Origin: Natronohydrobacter sp.
GTDB taxonomy: Bacteria; Pseudomonadota; Alphaproteobacteria; Rhodobacterales; Rhodobacteraceae
Assembly: GCA_030603695.1 (NCBI GenBank)
Contig: JAUVXF010000009.1
Location: 1 to 64,000 of the forward strand
Direction of reading: 5' to 3'
Length of the DNA: 64,000 bases
The notes under the pieces are model-generated. The model was not told the origin of the DNA, did not search any database, and worked only from the letters and a program-made list of their open reading frames with translations. Positions 11,082 through 55,779 of this stretch are shown piece after piece. The number at the start of each line of letters is the position of its first letter. Positions within the stretch are counted from its first letter, which is position 1. The position numbers and the translations under genes are program-made.

Positions 11082-11097
11082 TGGCATGATTTCTGCC
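11082..11097 (+). promoter_or_regulatory. Candidate sigma-54 promoter of fleT-fliEFGHIJ
   Basis: The sequence TGGCATGATTTCTGCC has GG-N10-GC spacing. Predicted initiation near 11108 lies downstream of the ATG at 11086, which argues that fleT starts at 11134. Confidence 0.7.
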
Positions 11098-11133
11098 TTG
11101 TTTGTTGGAGCAACTGAAAAGGTATCCGCGCTG

Positions 11134-12315
11134 ATGAGCACCCTGCATTTTCATACCCCGACCGAAGCTGATCTTGCCCTCTTGCTGGATCGTCTGGCAG
11201 ATTTGATGGCCCGGCGGCGGATTGCTGTGACACGGGGGGGCACGGATTTGGCCCATGGGGCGGCGGCGCTGGTGGGCTGCGTTACCACTGCGGCGCAGGA
11301 GCAAGCCTTGGTGCAACTGGCGCGCATGTCGAAAATTCGGTCTGTTTTCATTTTGCAAATGGGGGCAGAGCGACTGGCTGTTACCCCCGAAATGGGCGGC
11401 AGCCTGACCCGCATTTCGCTGCCCCTGGCAGAGACTGAAACCAACACTCCACTTGCTGAAACCCTGCTGTCCTATGCCGCAGATGTGATTGCCCAGCCCA
11501 TCCGGCCCATGGTGGCCTGCGATCCTGCAACCGGCGGGCTGATTGACCTTGCCGCGCGCGTGGCCGCAACCGATGTTACCGTCATGATCAACGGCCCCAC
11601 GGGCAGCGGCAAAGAGGTTCTGGCACGTGCCATTCACGCGGCCAGCCCCCGCGCGCCAAAGCCCTTTATTGCGATCAATTGCGCTGCCATCCCCGAAAAC
11701 ATGCTGGAGGCCATGCTTTTTGGCCATGTGAAAGGCGCCTTCACCGGGGCCATTACGGCGGGGCAGGGCCTTATTCGCGCCGCGGATGGTGGCACCCTGC
11801 TACTGGATGAGATTTCGGAAATGCCGCTGGGGTTGCAGGCCAAATTGCTGCGCGTGTTGCAGGAACGCAAGGTCACGCCGCTTGGCGCATCCGAGGAAGT
11901 GGCGGTGGATTTGCGCGTTCTGGCCACCTCGAACCGCGATATGCGCGCCGAAGTTGCGGCGGGGCGGTTCCGCGAGGATCTGTATTATCGGCTAAACGTT
12001 TTCCCCCTATATACCCTCGCGCTGGAGGAGCGGCCCGAAGATATCGTGCCGCTGGCCATTGCGTTTCTACGCCGTCATGCGCCTGCTGGAATATTGCCGC
12101 TTTTTTCTGCCAAGGCACTGGATGTGCTGCGTTTTCATGCTTGGCCCGGCAATGTGCGCGAATTGGAAAACGTGGTGCAACGCGCGCTCGTGCTATGCGA
12201 TGGCCAGCATATTGATCTGGCCGACATCCTGTTTGATCAGCTTGCCCCCAAACCGCGCCCCGCGCCCACACCTGCGCCCACGGCGTTCAAACGCCCGCGA
12301 GCCGCAGCGATCTGA
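11134..12315 (+). CDS. fleT: FleT, sigma-54 activator without DNA-binding domain
   Basis: The 393-aa protein is an AAA+ enhancer-binding protein. A short non-receiver N-domain (about 1-120) precedes Walker A GPTGSGKE (about 154-161), the sigma-54-contacting GAFTGA loop, Walker B LLLDEISEMP and the arginine-finger region. It ends in a Pro/Ala-rich tail with no helix-turn-helix. R. sphaeroides FleT is also missing the HTH and works in a complex with FleQ. The start at 11134 (MSTLHFH) is chosen over 11086 because of the promoter position and AAAAGG upstream. It is first in the operon with fliEFGHIJ. Confidence 0.92.
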   Translation: MSTLHFHTPTEADLALLLDRLADLMARRRIAVTRGGTDLAHGAAALVGCVTTAAQEQALVQLARMSKIRSVFILQMGAERLAVTPEMGGSLTRISLPLAETETNTPLAETLLSYAADVIAQPIRPMVACDPATGGLIDLAARVAATDVTVMINGPTGSGKEVLARAIHAASPRAPKPFIAINCAAIPENMLEAMLFGHVKGAFTGAITAGQGLIRAADGGTLLLDEISEMPLGLQAKLLRVLQERKVTPLGASEEVAVDLRVLATSNRDMRAEVAAGRFREDLYYRLNVFPLYTLALEERPEDIVPLAIAFLRRHAPAGILPLFSAKALDVLRFHAWPGNVRELENVVQRALVLCDGQHIDLADILFDQLAPKPRPAPTPAPTAFKRPRAAAI

Positions 12316-12324
12316 GGCAAGTCC

Positions 12325-12624
12325 ATGAGCATCGGCCCGGTTGGAACCTCTTTCGCGCTGCCTTCGGTGCAGTCCGTCCAGCCCGCGCGCGCGGGCGAGG
12401 CAACGCAGAATTTTGGCGATCGGCTGAGTTCTGCGTTGGAGCAGGTCAATGCCGCGCAGGGGCAGGCCACCCAATCTGCCCGCGCCTGGGAAATGGGTGT
12501 GGAAACCGATCTGGCCGCCGTGATGGTGGAGCAGCAGGTCGCCTCGCTTGGGTTTCAACTTACGCTGAATGTGCGCAACAAGGCGCTGGGCGCCTATCGC
12601 GACATCATGAACATGCCAGTTTAA
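12325..12624 (+). CDS. fliE: FliE, MS-ring/rod junction protein
   Basis: The 99-aa FliE has the conserved C-terminal pattern VEQQVASLGFQLTLNVRNKALGAYRDIMNMPV. It joins the MS ring to the proximal rod and is exported early. It begins 9 bases after fleT and precedes fliF by 22 bases. Length matches the family. Confidence 0.95.
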   Translation: MSIGPVGTSFALPSVQSVQPARAGEATQNFGDRLSSALEQVNAAQGQATQSARAWEMGVETDLAAVMVEQQVASLGFQLTLNVRNKALGAYRDIMNMPV

Positions 12625-33337: not shown

Positions 33338-34444
33338 TCAGCGCGTCAGGCCGTATTTGCGCATTTTCTCTATCAAAGTCGTGCGACGCAGGCCAAGCGC
33401 ATCGGCGGTGCGGCTAATGCAATTCTGCTGCGCTTCCATGGCAGCTGTGATCATCACCACCTCTATGTCGCGCAAATACATGCGCAAATCTATGCGGCCT
33501 GCGCCTTGGGCAAAAACCTCTGAAAACCGGGCAGGGGTATCATGCGCGGGGTCTTGCGGCAGTGGGGCATCTGGCCAAACTGTCTGTTGGGCTTTGGGCA
33601 TGGCGAAGTGCAACAGGTTTTCTGCCACTTCGCGCGCGCCCACTTTCCTGCCCGGAAACAGTAAGCAGGCGCGCTGCACCAGGGTGCGCAATTCGCGCAC
33701 ATTGCCCGGCCAGGGATGCGCGGCCAAGGCGCGCAGCGCCGCGGCATCGAAAACAGGCTGTGCCTGTGCAAGCTGGCCTTGCAGTTCCATTCCGATCAAA
33801 TGCTCCAGCAAGAGTGGAAGATCACCCATCCTTTCGGACAGGGCAGGAACGCGCAGCGGGAAAACCGAAAGCCGGAAATAAAGATCCTCGCGGAACGTGC
33901 CAGCCGCAACCATGGCAGCAAGATCACGATGCGTGGCCGCCACCAGCCGAAAATCCAGCTGCACCGGGGATTTGCTGCCCAAGCGGCGCAGGCTGCGCGT
34001 TTCCAGAACCCGCAGCAATTTGGCCTGCAAGGCAAGTGGCAGATCGCCAATCTCGTCCAGAAACAGCGTTCCGCCTTGCGCCTGTTCAATCAGCCCTTCG
34101 CGGGCCTTGTCGGCACCGGTATAGGCACCACGCTCTGTGCCAAAAAACTCTCCCTCCAGCAGGTCTGCCGGGATTGCCGCGCAATTGACCGCCACCATCG
34201 CGCCTTGGCGCCCTGACAGGCTGTGCAAGGCCTGCGCCACCAATTCCTTGCCCGCGCCGCTTGGCCCGCAGACCAGCACCGGGGCGGCAGACGGGGCAAG
34301 CAAGGCAATCATCTGCCGCATGGCGTGCATGACCGGCGCCTGTCCGGGGATCAGATGTTCTGCCCGGCGCAGCAACCAGGCCGGGTCTGGCTTGGGCATA
34401 TCACGTTCGGGCGTCAGGGGGTGGGGGATAAAATGCGCAACCAT
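33338..34444 (-). CDS. fleQ: FleQ, flagellar master activator without receiver domain
   Basis: The 368-aa enhancer-binding protein has an AAA+ domain from about residue 30, Walker A GPSGAGKE (60-67), a GAYTGA loop in place of GAFTGA, Walker B LFLDEIGDLP, and a C-terminal Fis-type helix-turn-helix (CISRTADALGLRRTTLIEKMRKYGLT). There is no N-terminal receiver. In R. sphaeroides FleQ supplies DNA binding for the FleQ/FleT pair. The start at 34444 follows GAAGG; 34453 has no room for one. Confidence 0.92.
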   Translation of the reverse strand: MVAHFIPHPLTPERDMPKPDPAWLLRRAEHLIPGQAPVMHAMRQMIALLAPSAAPVLVCGPSGAGKELVAQALHSLSGRQGAMVAVNCAAIPADLLEGEFFGTERGAYTGADKAREGLIEQAQGGTLFLDEIGDLPLALQAKLLRVLETRSLRRLGSKSPVQLDFRLVAATHRDLAAMVAAGTFREDLYFRLSVFPLRVPALSERMGDLPLLLEHLIGMELQGQLAQAQPVFDAAALRALAAHPWPGNVRELRTLVQRACLLFPGRKVGAREVAENLLHFAMPKAQQTVWPDAPLPQDPAHDTPARFSEVFAQGAGRIDLRMYLRDIEVVMITAAMEAQQNCISRTADALGLRRTTLIEKMRKYGLTR

Positions 34445-34475
34445 GAAACACATCCTTCAAAACACACTGTCAGTT

Positions 34476-41269: not shown

Positions 41270-41311
41270 GATGATGACCTCGGCAATGGGACAACGGGTT
41301 GGCCTAGCCTG

Positions 41312-41327
41312 TGCAAGTGCCGTGCCA
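41312..41327 (-). promoter_or_regulatory. Candidate sigma-54 promoter of flgPTAM
   Basis: The minus strand reads TGGCACGGCACTTGCA, a near-perfect -24/-12 element. It would start transcription near 41301, about 32 bases before flgP. Confidence 0.8.
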
Positions 41328-41375: not shown

Positions 41376-41391
41376 TGGCACAGAATTTGCA
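41376..41391 (+). promoter_or_regulatory. Candidate sigma-54 promoter of flhA
   Basis: TGGCACAGAATTTGCA is a near-perfect -24/-12 element. Initiation near 41402 leaves about 87 bases of leader before flhA at 41489. Confidence 0.8.
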
Positions 41392-45134: not shown

Positions 45135-46307
45135 GGGGGTTTGGCATGGTTGCCATGGCCGGGTTTTCTTCATGCCCTCTGGATATCGGGGTCGCTTGTG
45201 CTGGGTCTGGCCCGAACGGGCAGTCGCCGCCTGCGGAAGCGGTGCCCAGCGGCGCGCTCGTATCTTGTGCTGAATCGGGCTTCGGAATTGCGGCTGCGTT
45301 TGCACTGGCGGGTAACAGCGTGCCACAGGCCCCGTACCTGTGATTTTCCGATCAATATCAGCCAGACCATACCTGTGCTGACTGGCTGCACGAACCCGTT
45401 CCGTCCGGTCTTGGCGCGCGATGCTTGTGACAAGGCCGAAGCTGCCCAAGCTTATTGGCGCGCTTATTTTCAAATCTCGCGCCTCTGCCAGCCTGGCGCA
45501 CGCATCGTGGTTTGGTTACAGCGCGTCCCTGCGTGCCAGCAATGCCGCCACAGGGGCATTCTGGCGCGGCCCCATGTGGCGCGGCTTTGGTGGCACTAGG
45601 CGCGACTGGGCATGTGCGTGGGCGGTGCGGCTGTCGTGCGGCCGCGAAATCGCCACGGTCGGGTTGTGCACCCAACTCCATACGGCGCGGGCTTTGGTAG
45701 CACCAAGCGCGACTGGGCATGTGCATGGGCGGCGCGGCTGTCATGCGACCGCGAAATCGCCACGGTCGGGTTGTACACGCAGTTCCATGCGGCGCGGGCT
45801 TTGGTGGCACCAAGCGCGACTGGGCATGTGCATGGGCGGTGCGGCTGTCGTGCGGCCGCGAAATCGCCACAGTCGGGTTGTGCACGCGGCCCCATGTGGG
45901 GCGGCTTTGGTGGCAACACGCGCGACTGGGCATGTGCATGGGCGGTGCGGTTGTCGTGCGGCCGCGAAGCGACGATAGATCCATCCAGGCGCTTAGCCAC
46001 AGGGCTGGGGTTTTTCTTCTGGCGCAACAGCGCCCAAGCCGCTGTCTGATCTTGACCACAGGCCGTCATGCTGCAACGGCTGCACAAAGTGGCGGCCAGA
46101 AAGGTGCTGCCGTTGCAGCGATCAGGTATGAGCGGATGTCCCTCTGTGATGCCCAGCTGGCAAGAGCGGCGTCCATCGTTTGCGGCAGTTTTTACCGCAT
46201 GCGCGAGATCACATGTGCAGTTTGCAAGACATGGACTTTCCGGTCTCTGCGGGATGGTTCACATGTTGTCTTGCAATACACGAAACATTTTGTTTTTGCC
46301 AATGCAA
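45135..46307. other. Non-coding stretch after fliA
   Basis: No convincing gene lies between fliA and the 412-aa gene. Open frames here (for example 45146-45343 and 46068-46550) have no recognisable domain, no ribosome binding site and change frame across the repeats. I see no tRNA or rRNA signature. The centre is a tandem repeat; 46000-46307 shows nothing I can name. Confidence 0.6.
45565..45970. repeat. Tandem repeat, about 107-bp unit, nearly four copies
   Basis: Copies of GCGCGACTGGGCATGTG begin at 45600, 45707, 45814 and 45920, so the period is 107, 107 and 106 bases. A partial unit precedes the first copy (from about 45565) and another follows the last to about 45970. Each unit has a GTGCGGCCGCGAAATCGCCAC-like core, and copies differ at a few bases. 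The period is not a multiple of three, so it is not a coding repeat. Confidence 0.9.
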
Positions 46308-51301: not shown

Positions 51302-51317
51302 TGGCACCTATTTTGCA
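51302..51317 (+). promoter_or_regulatory. Candidate sigma-54 promoter of the PAS kinase
   Basis: TGGCACCTATTTTGCA is a near-perfect -24/-12 element, 43 bases after the previous gene. It would initiate near 51328. Confidence 0.8.
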
Positions 51318-51424
51318 GGGCTATAGGGCAGGCGAGTTGCCAAAGGCAGGGCGCATGCCGTTGGTGAATGAAACATCTGGTTCGCAGCGATTTTTGCAAA
51401 ATAAATAGTTTAGGGTTTAAAGAG

Positions 51425-53824
51425 ATGCTGCCAAAGCCCAATAAAAACACGCTAGGTGGCAAAACCCGATCCGGGGACAGCGCTTTGGCATATTGCTGTG
51501 CACAGCATATGGCGCCACACAGGCAGGACACCGCTTTGATCGCGCCCACCCCGCCTGATGCAGAGCTTTGGCTGGAATTGGACGGCCATATGACGATCAC
51601 GGCATGTCATTTCCACCCGCCTTTGACGCAGGAAACTGCGCAAAAAGGGGGGGCGGGCAGCAGTATCATCCATGCCCTGAATGCAGAATTTTCCCGCATC
51701 GCCCCGCAAATTCGGGCGGGATTGCGTTGGGGGGTGCCGGTGCATGGCCAGATCATGTCAATTACGGTCGCCGCAACGGAACGGCGATATCTGGCCATAA
51801 TCCTGAATGGTGAGGGGGGCACAAGCGGTGCAAACCCTGGCTATCGGGCAAAGTTGAAGGAAATTGCACGTGCCGAGTTTCATCTTGCAGCGCAGGACGA
51901 TGCCTGCGCGCCACTGCCGGATCTGGCCTCGCATCCGGGGTTTCGCCCGGAAGCGAGGCCAGATGCCTGGGCTGTGTTTGATCACAAACAGCAACTGGTG
52001 ATCTGCAATGCTGCTTTCCGGGGGGTGTATCCCGATCTTGCCGATATCTTGGTTCCGGGCCAACCCCTTGTGAATATTTTGCATTGTGCTTTGCAAAGGC
52101 GGAAGTCACCCGGCAGCGATCGCGCCCGTAAGATATGGATTGCGCGCAAGATGGATCAGTTTTCCATGCGGCACCCACAAACCAAGCTGCGCAAATTCCA
52201 CAGCCGCTGGTATCGCGAAGCGCACTACCCGATGTGCGATGGCAGGTATGCTATCATCCTTTCTGATGTTTCGGAGTGGAAAAAAGCAGAGGCGCACAGG
52301 TTGGCTGTCCGCGCCTGCGCACTCGATACCTCTGTTGATGGGGTGTTTCTTGTTTCCACCGATGGGAAGTTGGAATATGCCAACCCCTGCGCAATCGGTA
52401 TTTTTCAGGGCGAAACTGAAGATACCCTTTTGGGCCGGGATTGGTGTGATGTGCTCTTGCCCTGCCATCCCGATCCCGCGCGTGAGGGGGTGCGCGAAAG
52501 ACTTGCGCAGGCCGGTTTCTGGCGAGGGCAATCCTTTTTCACGACCAAAACCAAAGAGACCATCGAAATTGAAAGCACTGTTACCCAAAATACCGATGGC
52601 ACGATGCTTTGCATCTTTCGTGATATCACGGCACAGCGCCTGAACGAGATCGAACGCGAGCGTTTGCGCGAGCAACTGACGCTTGCACGGCGGCGAGAGG
52701 AGATTGCGCAAATTGCCGCGGGGCTGGCGCATGATTTCAACAACATTCTTGCCGGCATTGCCGCCGCAGCCAATATTATTTCAGAGGCAGATGAATTGGT
52801 GACTGCCCAACCGCTGGCGCTGCGCATTTCGGATGCCTGCGATCAGGCGGGTGGTTTGCTGCGCCGCATGCTTTCTTTGGGGAAAAGTGATACACCTTAT
52901 GAAGTGCTGGATCTGCGTCGCCCCCTGCGCGATGCAGAATCGCTGTTGCGTCCCAGCCTCTGCGCACCTGTCACCTTGTGTGTTGATCTGCCCCCAACCC
53001 CGCTTGTAACATATGCCGACAGCACAGCGATTGTGCAGATGGTTCTTAATCTGGTGATCAATGCACGCGATGCCATTCTTGCCCAATCCGAAATCCGCGC
53101 CAAGGCCGGGATCAGGGTTGCGCTAAGCAAAGCCACAGCAGAGGATCTTGCCCAAAGCTTTGATATCGGGACAGTTGATCAGCGGTTAAGCTATGCGCGG
53201 ATTACGGTTGCCGATGACGGGCCAGGGCTGAGCGATGAGATACGCGCCAGAATGTTTACGCCCTATTTCTCGACCAAGGGCGCAGAGGGAACGGGGCTTG
53301 GCCTGGCGATTGTTGTCAACGTTATCCAAAAACAGGGCGGCGCGCTGGCGCTTCTTTCGTGGCCCGATGGCGGCACGCAGTTTACAATCCTTTGGCCGCT
53401 AGAGGGGGCGGGCGAGGATTTGACAGCCCTGGCAGCGGGCCTTTGGGCCGGAGAGGCTGCGCTTGTCCTAAGCGATGACCCGGATCTGGCGCATGATCTG
53501 GCTGAGGCGTTGCAAGGGGCAGGGGCGTTTGTGCAGCGCTGTAACTCTTGGGATGAAGTTTGCGCCTATGCCCAAGAACCTGACATGTGGGATTGCGTGG
53601 TTTTGGATAGGCCCCCTGTCGCGCAGTGCGGCGCGCAGGCGCGCTTGCCGGAAACGCTGCCAGTGCTGATTGTTGGCAATGGCGGCGCGGGTGCTGCGCA
53701 AACAGGCTGTCTGTCACAGCAGGTTGCCTATTGCACTGGCCCGTCTGATCGCCCCGATTTTCTGGCAGAGCTGTTGGATATCAAGCACAAGCTGGCCATG
53801 GCGGTGATGATGGCCGAAGGGTAA
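51425..53824 (+). CDS. Soluble PAS sensor kinase with degenerate C-terminal receiver
   Basis: The 799-aa protein has PAS-like regions (about 175-285 and 295-405), a CckA-like HisKA with His436 in AAGLAHDFNNILAGI, a HATPase (MVLNLVINARDAIL ... DDGPGLSDE ... GTGLGLAIV), and a receiver-like tail that keeps CVVLD but loses other receiver signatures. A longer start at 51368 adds 19 residues; the start at 51425 is a guess based on AGGG upstream. A good sigma-54 promoter puts it in the flagellar regulon. No membrane helix is visible. Confidence 0.82.
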   Translation: MLPKPNKNTLGGKTRSGDSALAYCCAQHMAPHRQDTALIAPTPPDAELWLELDGHMTITACHFHPPLTQETAQKGGAGSSIIHALNAEFSRIAPQIRAGLRWGVPVHGQIMSITVAATERRYLAIILNGEGGTSGANPGYRAKLKEIARAEFHLAAQDDACAPLPDLASHPGFRPEARPDAWAVFDHKQQLVICNAAFRGVYPDLADILVPGQPLVNILHCALQRRKSPGSDRARKIWIARKMDQFSMRHPQTKLRKFHSRWYREAHYPMCDGRYAIILSDVSEWKKAEAHRLAVRACALDTSVDGVFLVSTDGKLEYANPCAIGIFQGETEDTLLGRDWCDVLLPCHPDPAREGVRERLAQAGFWRGQSFFTTKTKETIEIESTVTQNTDGTMLCIFRDITAQRLNEIERERLREQLTLARRREEIAQIAAGLAHDFNNILAGIAAAANIISEADELVTAQPLALRISDACDQAGGLLRRMLSLGKSDTPYEVLDLRRPLRDAESLLRPSLCAPVTLCVDLPPTPLVTYADSTAIVQMVLNLVINARDAILAQSEIRAKAGIRVALSKATAEDLAQSFDIGTVDQRLSYARITVADDGPGLSDEIRARMFTPYFSTKGAEGTGLGLAIVVNVIQKQGGALALLSWPDGGTQFTILWPLEGAGEDLTALAAGLWAGEAALVLSDDPDLAHDLAEALQGAGAFVQRCNSWDEVCAYAQEPDMWDCVVLDRPPVAQCGAQARLPETLPVLIVGNGGAGAAQTGCLSQQVAYCTGPSDRPDFLAELLDIKHKLAMAVMMAEG

Positions 53825-54030: not shown

Positions 54031-54693
54031 TCAGACAACACCCAGTTCTTTCGCCAGGATCACGGCGCGCGTGCGGTTATTTGCCCCCAATTTTCGGCAA
54101 ATGCCAGTGACATGCATTTTAACCGTGGCCTCTGCCATTGTCAGGTCATTGGCGATTTCCTTGTTGGATTTGCCCTCTGACAATTGCAGCAGCACAGCCA
54201 TTTCCTTATCGCTCAGATTGCCCTGCCGGTTGGCAGAGGCCGGGGCGGATTGTTGCTGGATCAGTTCCAGCGGCAAATAGCGCTCGCCCGAATTCATGAA
54301 GCGGATCGCGTTTGCGAGAGAGCGCAGGGGGCTTTTTTTCAGCACGATCCCGGCGGCGCCAGCCGTCATTATTTCTTGCATCATCCGCGGTGTGGTTGCC
54401 CCTGTCAGGATCGAAACGGGCTTGCCTTCATTCAGCCGGATAATGCGTTTCAGCCCGGCAATACCGTTCATGCCGGGCATGTTCATATCCAAAAGCACCA
54501 CATCAAACCCGCCCTCGGATTGCAGAATATGCGCAGCATCCTCCAGCGACTCTGCAACATGAATATCCATATCGGCAGTTTCGGTCAGAAATAGCCGGAT
54601 CATATCAGTGATCATCCGATGATCATCGGCCAATAAAACCCTAATCTGTTCACTGCGGATCGAGGCTATTTTTGTCACAACTTGGTCTCTCAT
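54031..54693 (-). CDS. LuxR/NarL-family response regulator
   Basis: The 220-aa regulator has a receiver (acidic ADD at 22-24, phospho-acceptor Asp69 in VVLLDMNMPGMNG, Lys in VLKKS) and a C-terminal LuxR helix-turn-helix (LSDKEMAVLLQLSEGKSNKEIANDLTMAEATVKMHVTGICRKLGANNRTRAV). It is convergent to the PAS kinase, which is a possible partner. Its targets are unknown; no binding site was sought. About 193 bases upstream are non-coding and AT-rich. Confidence 0.92.
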   Translation of the reverse strand: MRDQVVTKIASIRSEQIRVLLADDHRMITDMIRLFLTETADMDIHVAESLEDAAHILQSEGGFDVVLLDMNMPGMNGIAGLKRIIRLNEGKPVSILTGATTPRMMQEIMTAGAAGIVLKKSPLRSLANAIRFMNSGERYLPLELIQQQSAPASANRQGNLSDKEMAVLLQLSEGKSNKEIANDLTMAEATVKMHVTGICRKLGANNRTRAVILAKELGVV

Positions 54694-54886: not shown

Positions 54887-55279
54887 TCATTCGGGGGGGC
54901 GCGAATCGTCCGTGGCAGAGGGTGCTCCCCCAAATGCCGAAAGCAGGCTTGCGGCATCATCAAGCGAGATTGCCCCAAAGTTGACTTTTTTCTTCGCCTT
55001 CATGGGTTTTGGCGGGGGCGGCGGCTCTGGCTGTGCGGGAAGTTCGGCTATGACAGGGTCTGGCTCTGGCTCTGGCGGTGGTGGCGGTGGGCTGGCACGC
55101 GGTGCAACGGGTGCGCGCGCCAGATCGGCATGCAACAGGGCAATGCGCAAGGCCAGTGCGCCGCGCCCCACAATTTCGCCAGTGCCACATAGGTCGCGCA
55201 AGGTTTCTGTTTCAGCAGCAGACAATGTGGCTGTGCGGCGTTTCAAGCTGTCGACCCAGCTTTTGGGGCGTTTGGGCAT
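54887..55279 (-). CDS. Proline-rich unknown protein divergent from flgB
   Basis: The 130-aa protein has a basic N-terminal helix (MPKRPKSWVDSLKRRTATLSAAE), a Pro/Glu-rich stretch (about residues 63-90, repeats of PEPEPDP type) and a C-terminal amphipathic segment (KVNFGAISLDDAASLLSAFGG). There is no signal peptide or membrane helix. I do not recognise it. The start at 55279 follows AAAAGGAG, and the upstream frame would cross its own promoter. Shared control with flgB suggests a basal-body or export role. Confidence 0.75.
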   Translation of the reverse strand: MPKRPKSWVDSLKRRTATLSAAETETLRDLCGTGEIVGRGALALRIALLHADLARAPVAPRASPPPPPPEPEPDPVIAELPAQPEPPPPPKPMKAKKKVNFGAISLDDAASLLSAFGGAPSATDDSRPPE

Positions 55280-55322: not shown

Positions 55323-55338
55323 TGGCATTGTTCTTGCA
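55323..55338 (+). promoter_or_regulatory. Candidate sigma-54 promoter of flgB operon
   Basis: TGGCATTGTTCTTGCA has GG-N10-GC spacing. Its -12 GC (55336-55337) is also the -12 GC of a promoter on the other strand. Confidence 0.75.
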
Positions 55339-55350
55339 ATTCCTGGGCCA
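55335..55350 (-). promoter_or_regulatory. Candidate divergent sigma-54 promoter sharing the -12 element
   Basis: The minus strand reads TGGCCCAGGAATTGCA, exact GG-N10-GC. It shares the palindromic TTGCAA with the flgB promoter and would start about 45 bases before the Pro-rich gene. Confidence 0.7.
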
Positions 55351-55389: not shown

Positions 55390-55779
55390 ATGACAACGCT
55401 GCTGCGAAACCACCTTGCCACGCATGCCGAGGCGCTGAAAATCAGTGAACGGCGCGGGGCGATCATTGCCTCGAACATCGCCAATGCGGCAACGCCCGGT
55501 TACAAGGCGCGCGATATAGATTTTCGCGTCGAACTCGCACAGCGGGTTCATGGGGGCGGGGCGCTGGCGGTAACAGACCCGCGCCATATCGCCCATCCCG
55601 GCGCGCTTATGTCAGGGCCGGGATTTCGCGTTCCCACCACGGCCGCGCTGGATGGCAATACTGTAGAAACATCGGTGGAGCAGGTGCAGTTTGCCGAAAA
55701 CGCCCTGCGCCAACAAGCCAGCCTTACTTTTCTGAACCGCCGTATCAGCGGGCTGCGTTCCGCCATCCGAGGAGAGTGA
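55390..55779 (+). CDS. flgB: FlgB, proximal rod protein
   Basis: The 129-aa FlgB has the rod signature IIASNIANAATPGYKARDIDF and a C-terminal helix typical of rod proteins. It is first of the flgBCDEFGHIJKL series. Only a weak ribosome binding site (GGGGG) precedes it. Confidence 0.94.
   Translation: MTTLLRNHLATHAEALKISERRGAIIASNIANAATPGYKARDIDFRVELAQRVHGGGALAVTDPRHIAHPGALMSGPGFRVPTTAALDGNTVETSVEQVQFAENALRQQASLTFLNRRISGLRSAIRGE

Follow-up and report, generated by a model that had tools for sequence, protein, structure and literature searches.

The 28 bases located between flgB and a divergent Pro-rich gene in Natronohydrobacter sp. (TGGCATTGTTCTTGCAATTCCTGGGCCA; positions 55323-55350 of the window, i.e. 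of the whole 64 000 nt stretch analysed here) probably constitute a sigma-54 promoter that works in both directions from a single common -12 element, at which two outputs driven by RpoN and its activators would compete for each initiation event. The first-pass annotation had proposed that two opposed sigma-54 elements, both with exact GG-N10-GC spacing, use the same GC by virtue of a TTGCAA palindrome. Reading of the sequence and pattern matching confirmed this geometry: GG is found at 55324-55325 on the plus strand and at 55349-55348 on the minus strand, and the GC at 55336-55337 is common to both (Table 1). On each strand the GG-N10-GC motif lies in a TGG/TTGC context, fits TGGCN7TTGCA with 0 mismatches and scores 10/12 against TGGCACG-N4-TTGCA, the sigma-54 consensus used for scoring. 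The start codons (flgB ATG at 55390; minus-strand ATG at 55279) are compatible with promoters at this place and, given the predicted starts at ~55349 (+) and ~55324 (-), the two transcripts would diverge without overlap.

Table 1. Features of the flagellar region discussed in the text (positions in the window)
Feature	Position	Strand	Basis or remark
Sigma-54 element toward flgB, TGGCATTGTTCTTGCA	55323..55338	+	GG-N10-GC (-24 GG / -12 GC)
Sigma-54 element toward divergent Pro-rich gene, TGGCCCAGGAATTGCA	55335..55350	-	GG-N10-GC
GC, -12 for both directions	55336..55337		sequence comparison
TTGCAA palindrome, shared -12 readable both ways	55334..55339		frequency in shared versus other regions (see text)
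Predicted transcription start toward flgB	~55349	+	from spacing, C of GC taken as -12
Predicted transcription start toward Pro-rich gene	~55324	-	from spacing, C of GC taken as -12
flgB, proximal rod protein	55390..55779	+	PF00460 (E 2e-7); FlgB relatives
flgC, flgD, flgE, flgF, flgG, flgH, flgI	after flgB, up to 61552	+	Pfam families and order
Divergent gene, 130 aa, Pro/Glu-rich, short N-terminal part likely helical	54887..55279	-	syntenic ORF in relatives
LuxR-type response regulator behind divergent gene	54031..54693	-	PF00072, PF00196
flhA-side pair, minus promoter	41327-41312	-	12/12; same cluster
flhA-side pair, plus promoter	41376-41391	+	11/12; same cluster
rpoN, sole sigma-54 gene found in genome	26348..27790	-	
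Sigma-54 activator, FleT-like, followed by fliE	11086..12315	+	no HTH family found
FliE	12325-12624		PF02049; directly after FleT-like gene
Sigma-54 activator, FleQ-like	33338..34453	-	HTH_8

Conservation of the arrangement was analysed upstream of flgB in relatives. FlgB searches matched 41 of 60 close genomes at E 0.001 (mostly weakly), 23 of 394 genomes of the family at 1e-15 and 4 of 37 genomes of the genus at 1e-15; from the named genomes the best 80 of 578 loci were used. The resulting sample, which is non-random and whose members are related by descent, consists of 109 loci (these 80 and 29 others) and corresponds to 95 distinct promoter regions, 14 loci repeating the promoter region of another. 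A plus sigma-54 element (10-12/12) precedes flgB in 109/109 loci. CC is present 10 bases past the plus GC in 78 of the 95 regions, and CCA in 72, whereas CCA 9 or 11 bases past it was found in none (0/95); at 24 shifted registers in the shared regions, CC occurred 97 times out of 1800 (5.4%). The regions were classified as shared (75), separated (11; the minus element has its own GC) or lost (9; no minus element). The bare GG-N10-GC rule finds a partner in 92/109 loci or 78/95 regions; three loci (L005, L040 and L119, the last being arguable) were moved to the lost class on the ground that the partner looks accidental, and three with AGG in place of TGG (L102, L110 and L125) were kept as shared. 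Retention of the overlap in related genomes had been named beforehand as a check, and it held, in exact register, for 75/95 distinct regions. Among the matches listed, shared regions include Rhodobacterales, SAR116 and records labelled Rhodobiaceae, Rhodospirillaceae and Rickettsiales; the same shared -12 is seen at locus L042 and, outside the 109 loci, in the promoter of an Octadecabacter plasmid (TGGCACTCAACTTGCAAATATCAGACCA), where the gene in the homologous place is annotated 'hypothetical protein'. TTGCAA is present in 74/75 shared regions versus 2/20 other flgB regions (Fisher P = 3e-16, kinship ignored). Since the arrangement has been kept by many related alphaproteobacteria, the overlap probably has a function and did not arise as a mere coincidence.

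The separated and lost states are informative as to the nature of the minus element. In the 11 separated regions (L033, L058, L062, L063, L074, L078, L080, L084, L101, L107 and L117) the plus element retains its own GC, and the minus element, displaced rightward by 12 to 46 nt, has a complete GG-N10-GC of its own (9 or 10/12). None of these regions (0/11) has CCA at N10 of the plus promoter; hence flgB does without CCA there, and the minus element behaves like a promoter-type unit with its own -12. Eight of the 9 lost regions still have a divergent ORF, so that the divergent gene either can dispense with the minus element or is expressed otherwise. On the FlgB tree (126 columns, 95 rows, many weak forks and no outgroup root), the shared, separated and lost states require 10, 3 and 7 changes, respectively; label shuffling gave values as low as these in 0/500, 0/500 and 16/500 cases. 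We read the split state as derived from the shared one by insertion. At offsets of 34-46 nt (the largest being 46 nt in L062, L080 and L117, and 45 nt in L101 and L107) the promoters point toward one another, and the 5' ends of the predicted transcripts would overlap, by ~22 nt at an offset of 46.

A reading that keeps both promoters is that their sharing reflects compact packing only, with firing too rare for occupancy of one direction to limit the other. It agrees with the bidirectional promoter proposed above on the nature of the element and differs on the effect of sharing; we consider it a real possibility, albeit the less probable of the two. Basal activity was too low for competition at the five Escherichia coli sigma-70 bidirectional promoters tested, according to PMC12825309, and lineages in which sharing was split (11/95) or lost (9/95) do exist, both of which are in line with packing. 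On the other hand, sharing persists over most of the FlgB tree, even though some lineages have roomier intergenic regions, and a neighbouring divergent sigma-54 pair, beside flhA, is not so packed. This pair consists of opposed promoters in the same cluster as flgB, but these are fully separate, in 7/7 genomes, with 65-100 bp between the GCs; a partner in register was found at 3/14 of its sites. A second shared -12 that we considered at 41300-41327 was rejected, as it depends on a weak extra plus match at 41300 that is not conserved.

The flgB direction might also be the sole promoter, CCA near +1 being an initial transcribed sequence or an operator (e.g. for a FleQ-like activator) needed by flgB. 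CCA does lie at about the predicted flgB start, and FleQ-type activators of gammaproteobacteria can bind downstream of promoters, which was counted in favour of an operator. However, CCA at N10 was dropped from the flgB promoter in 11/11 separated regions, and the block that moved away keeps TGG-N10-GC as a minus-strand unit. The register, moreover, is exact to one base and the divergent ORF starts at a near-constant distance: an ORF of at least 100 aa, or one running off the contig end, begins 20-60 nt from the plus GC in 93/95 regions (with ATG in 90), and in the 71 shared regions where the script that picked the starts chose an ATG, the distance has a median of 36 nt and quartiles of 33-39. 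We therefore disfavour the operator or initiator and regard it as improbable.

The frequency of such sequences was estimated in the genome and at other promoters. TGGN8TTGCAAN8CCA occurs at 2 exact places in the 2.95-Mb genome, 55323-55350 and C3:7402. The single element TGGCN7TTGCA has 16 exact occurrences in the window and 107 in the whole genome; allowing up to 1 mismatch, there are 70 in the window versus 48.6 (SD 7.4) in shuffled sequences, none of 100 shuffles reaching 70. Rhizobial dctA promoters (21 of 30 loci, L161-L181) contain TTGCAA in 20/21 cases and a partner GG in 4/21. The palindrome being this common in a unidirectional sigma-54 promoter, it proves little alone, and we dropped it as sufficient proof of sharing. 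In the second control set, flgB-like loci presumably of the other flagellar type (L006-L030; these are weaker FlgB matches, some possibly other rod genes, and served as a control only), 1/25 has a sigma-54 site scoring at least 10, and that one (L019) also has GG in register. The strict 28-mer was found in 8/398 genomes of the phylum, including that of the window; in the seven others only some copies are intergenic by a rough ORF check. Judged by these control promoters and the phylum scan, which are largely without the pattern, sharing is special to this flgB place and no general by-product of sigma-54 sites. A fortuitous overlap, arising from the abundance of sigma-54-like sequence in this genome, as the 107 occurrences might suggest, is extremely improbable given the CCA register (72/95 regions against 0 at adjacent registers) and the three control promoter sets, and on this comparison the pattern in the window is not fortuitous. 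One dctA promoter, in a genome of the same class (L153 1501-1528, G713), has a full opposite-strand partner and lies between dctA and a dctB-like sensor kinase gene; as a partner GG is present in 4/21 relatives, the genome of L153 included, this further candidate for a shared -12 was rejected as probably due to chance.

What the two directions would express is as follows. The genes after flgB match rod, hook-cap, hook, L-ring and P-ring families. On the other side, the minus-strand ORF runs without interruption across the promoter if begun at a TTG at 55396; the ATG at 55279 matches the start position in relatives and is preceded by GGAGTG, which resembles a ribosome-binding site. Domain searches with the divergent protein gave neither a Pfam family at E below 0.1 nor any NCBIfam family. 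Its counterparts in relatives evolve fast and have an N-terminal helical part and an acidic or Pro-rich linker; many carry a small beta domain with weak similarity to DUF7302/DUF7210, which is not visible in the protein of the window. Among divergent ORFs, the first 62 residues of the latter matched those of L002 (E 1.5e-24), L055 (3.9e-6) and L003 (2.3e-4), within its own genus, and profile comparison connects the group to which it belongs remotely with the wider family. The gene for a LuxR-type regulator lies directly behind the divergent gene in each of the 4 genomes of the genus that carry this flgB, as well as at L128; the minus-direction transcript possibly includes it.

The genome also contains the factors that a sigma-54 promoter needs, i.e. 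rpoN and enhancer-binding activators. By domains and gene order, the window has the composition of a Fla1-type cluster, with rpoN, a FleQ-like activator with an HTH domain and a FleT-like one without HTH beside fliE. Further sigma-54 activators are encoded elsewhere in the genome, outside the window, so that the FleQ/FleT-type proteins are candidates for action at the flgB promoter. With the conserved overlap, the separable minus element and the presence of rpoN and activators, the interpretation given in the first-pass annotation is supported; occupancy of only one direction at a time would follow from the geometry, and may set the balance between the two outputs.

In the mechanism that we propose, each direction would have its own -24 GG, and the single -12 GC within TTGCAA would serve both. 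The flagellar RpoN holoenzyme would bind as a closed complex in either orientation. Sigma-54 closed complexes are stable and melting starts at -12; because both orientations use this same step, the geometry suggests that only one complex would be bound, and one orientation occupied, at a time. Activators, presumably of the FleQ/FleT type, would then open the complex that happens to be bound, which would yield the flgB rod/hook transcript in one orientation and, in the other, that of the Pro/Glu-rich gene (possibly together with the LuxR-type regulator in this genus). Both outputs would thus be switched on together by RpoN and its activators, yet compete for each initiation. The plus element is nearer to consensus, with a mean score of 10.5/12 versus 9.5/12 for the minus element, which suggests a bias of direction toward flgB; the less canonical minus -24 was also counted against a two-way promoter. 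Two-way transcription, exclusivity, competition, this bias and the identity of the activators are what we infer from geometry, conserved register, retention of both elements upon separation, the divergent ORF and the gene content.

The study of bidirectional promoters in bacteria is recent, and the work compared here concerns sigma-70. In the promoters described by Warman, Wade, Grainger and co-workers, a symmetrical -10 is shared by both strands and the divergent starts are closely spaced. Two polymerases are sterically barred from binding at once, and one direction can be repressed when the other is strongly activated (PMC12825309). The flgB element resembles them in that an inherently symmetrical single core element, TTGCAA with GG at N10 on each side, is readable on both strands. 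It would differ from them in using sigma-54, in sharing the -12 and in needing an ATP-driven activator; the distance between its predicted starts is ~25 nt (versus the common 18, 10 and 23), and it is kept at a single orthologous site in numerous genera. The sigma-54 -12 and the 25-nt distance place it outside the sigma-70 class, as a variant, and we read it as a conserved sigma-54 counterpart of the known sigma-70 promoters. By analogy with the latter, competition between the two outputs would be expected under conditions in which the flagellar activators act.

Related systems are known from Cereibacter (C.) sphaeroides. Its Fla1 set uses RpoN2, FleQ and FleQ/FleT, FleT being devoid of a DNA-binding domain (PMC7277832 and PMC11999139), and is named fla3-type in PMC11974857; like the cluster in the window, it is sigma-54-dependent, with FleQ-like and FleT-like activators. 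The accessible text of these three papers makes no mention of a shared -12 or of a minus-strand transcript at flgB. Divergent flagellar promoters also occur in the second flagellar set of C. sphaeroides, a member of the same bacterial order; these are reported to be controlled by CtrA (PMC6180460), as opposed to the predicted sigma-54 control at the flgB of the window, and the flgB-like control loci presumably of the other flagellar type mostly have no strong sigma-54 element. The titles and abstracts covered yielded no description of a -12 shared by divergent sigma-54 promoters, although C. sphaeroides promoter papers of 2000, 2006 and 2009 may mention the overlap; the accessible portion of PMC4591121 has nothing on a shared -12. 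Start-site data for C. sphaeroides are available under GEO GSE150944.

A conserved sigma-54 case would offer a system in which the orientation of polymerase could be separated from activator-driven opening. The locus also draws attention to a protein family without a name, whose genes are next to flgB, while the shared, split and lost lineages form a ready-made evolutionary series. We tentatively suggest, as a speculation that may well prove wrong, that a reversible sigma-54 promoter sets a ratio in flagellar assembly, each closed complex, bound in one orientation or the other, serving to express the rod/hook operon or else a Pro/Glu-rich, disordered protein of the flagellum (plus the LuxR-type regulator in this genus); such a promoter would be ancestral to the flagellar type of Rhodobacterales, SAR116 and other alphaproteobacteria, and the splitting lineages would have changed the coupling.

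Two further features of the window were noted. A sigma-54 element (11/12) at 51302-51317 immediately precedes the gene for a PAS histidine kinase (51368-53824), which is located close to the flagellar genes. At 45629-45654 and 45843-45868, 214 nt apart, 26 bases are identical, which suggests a local duplication.
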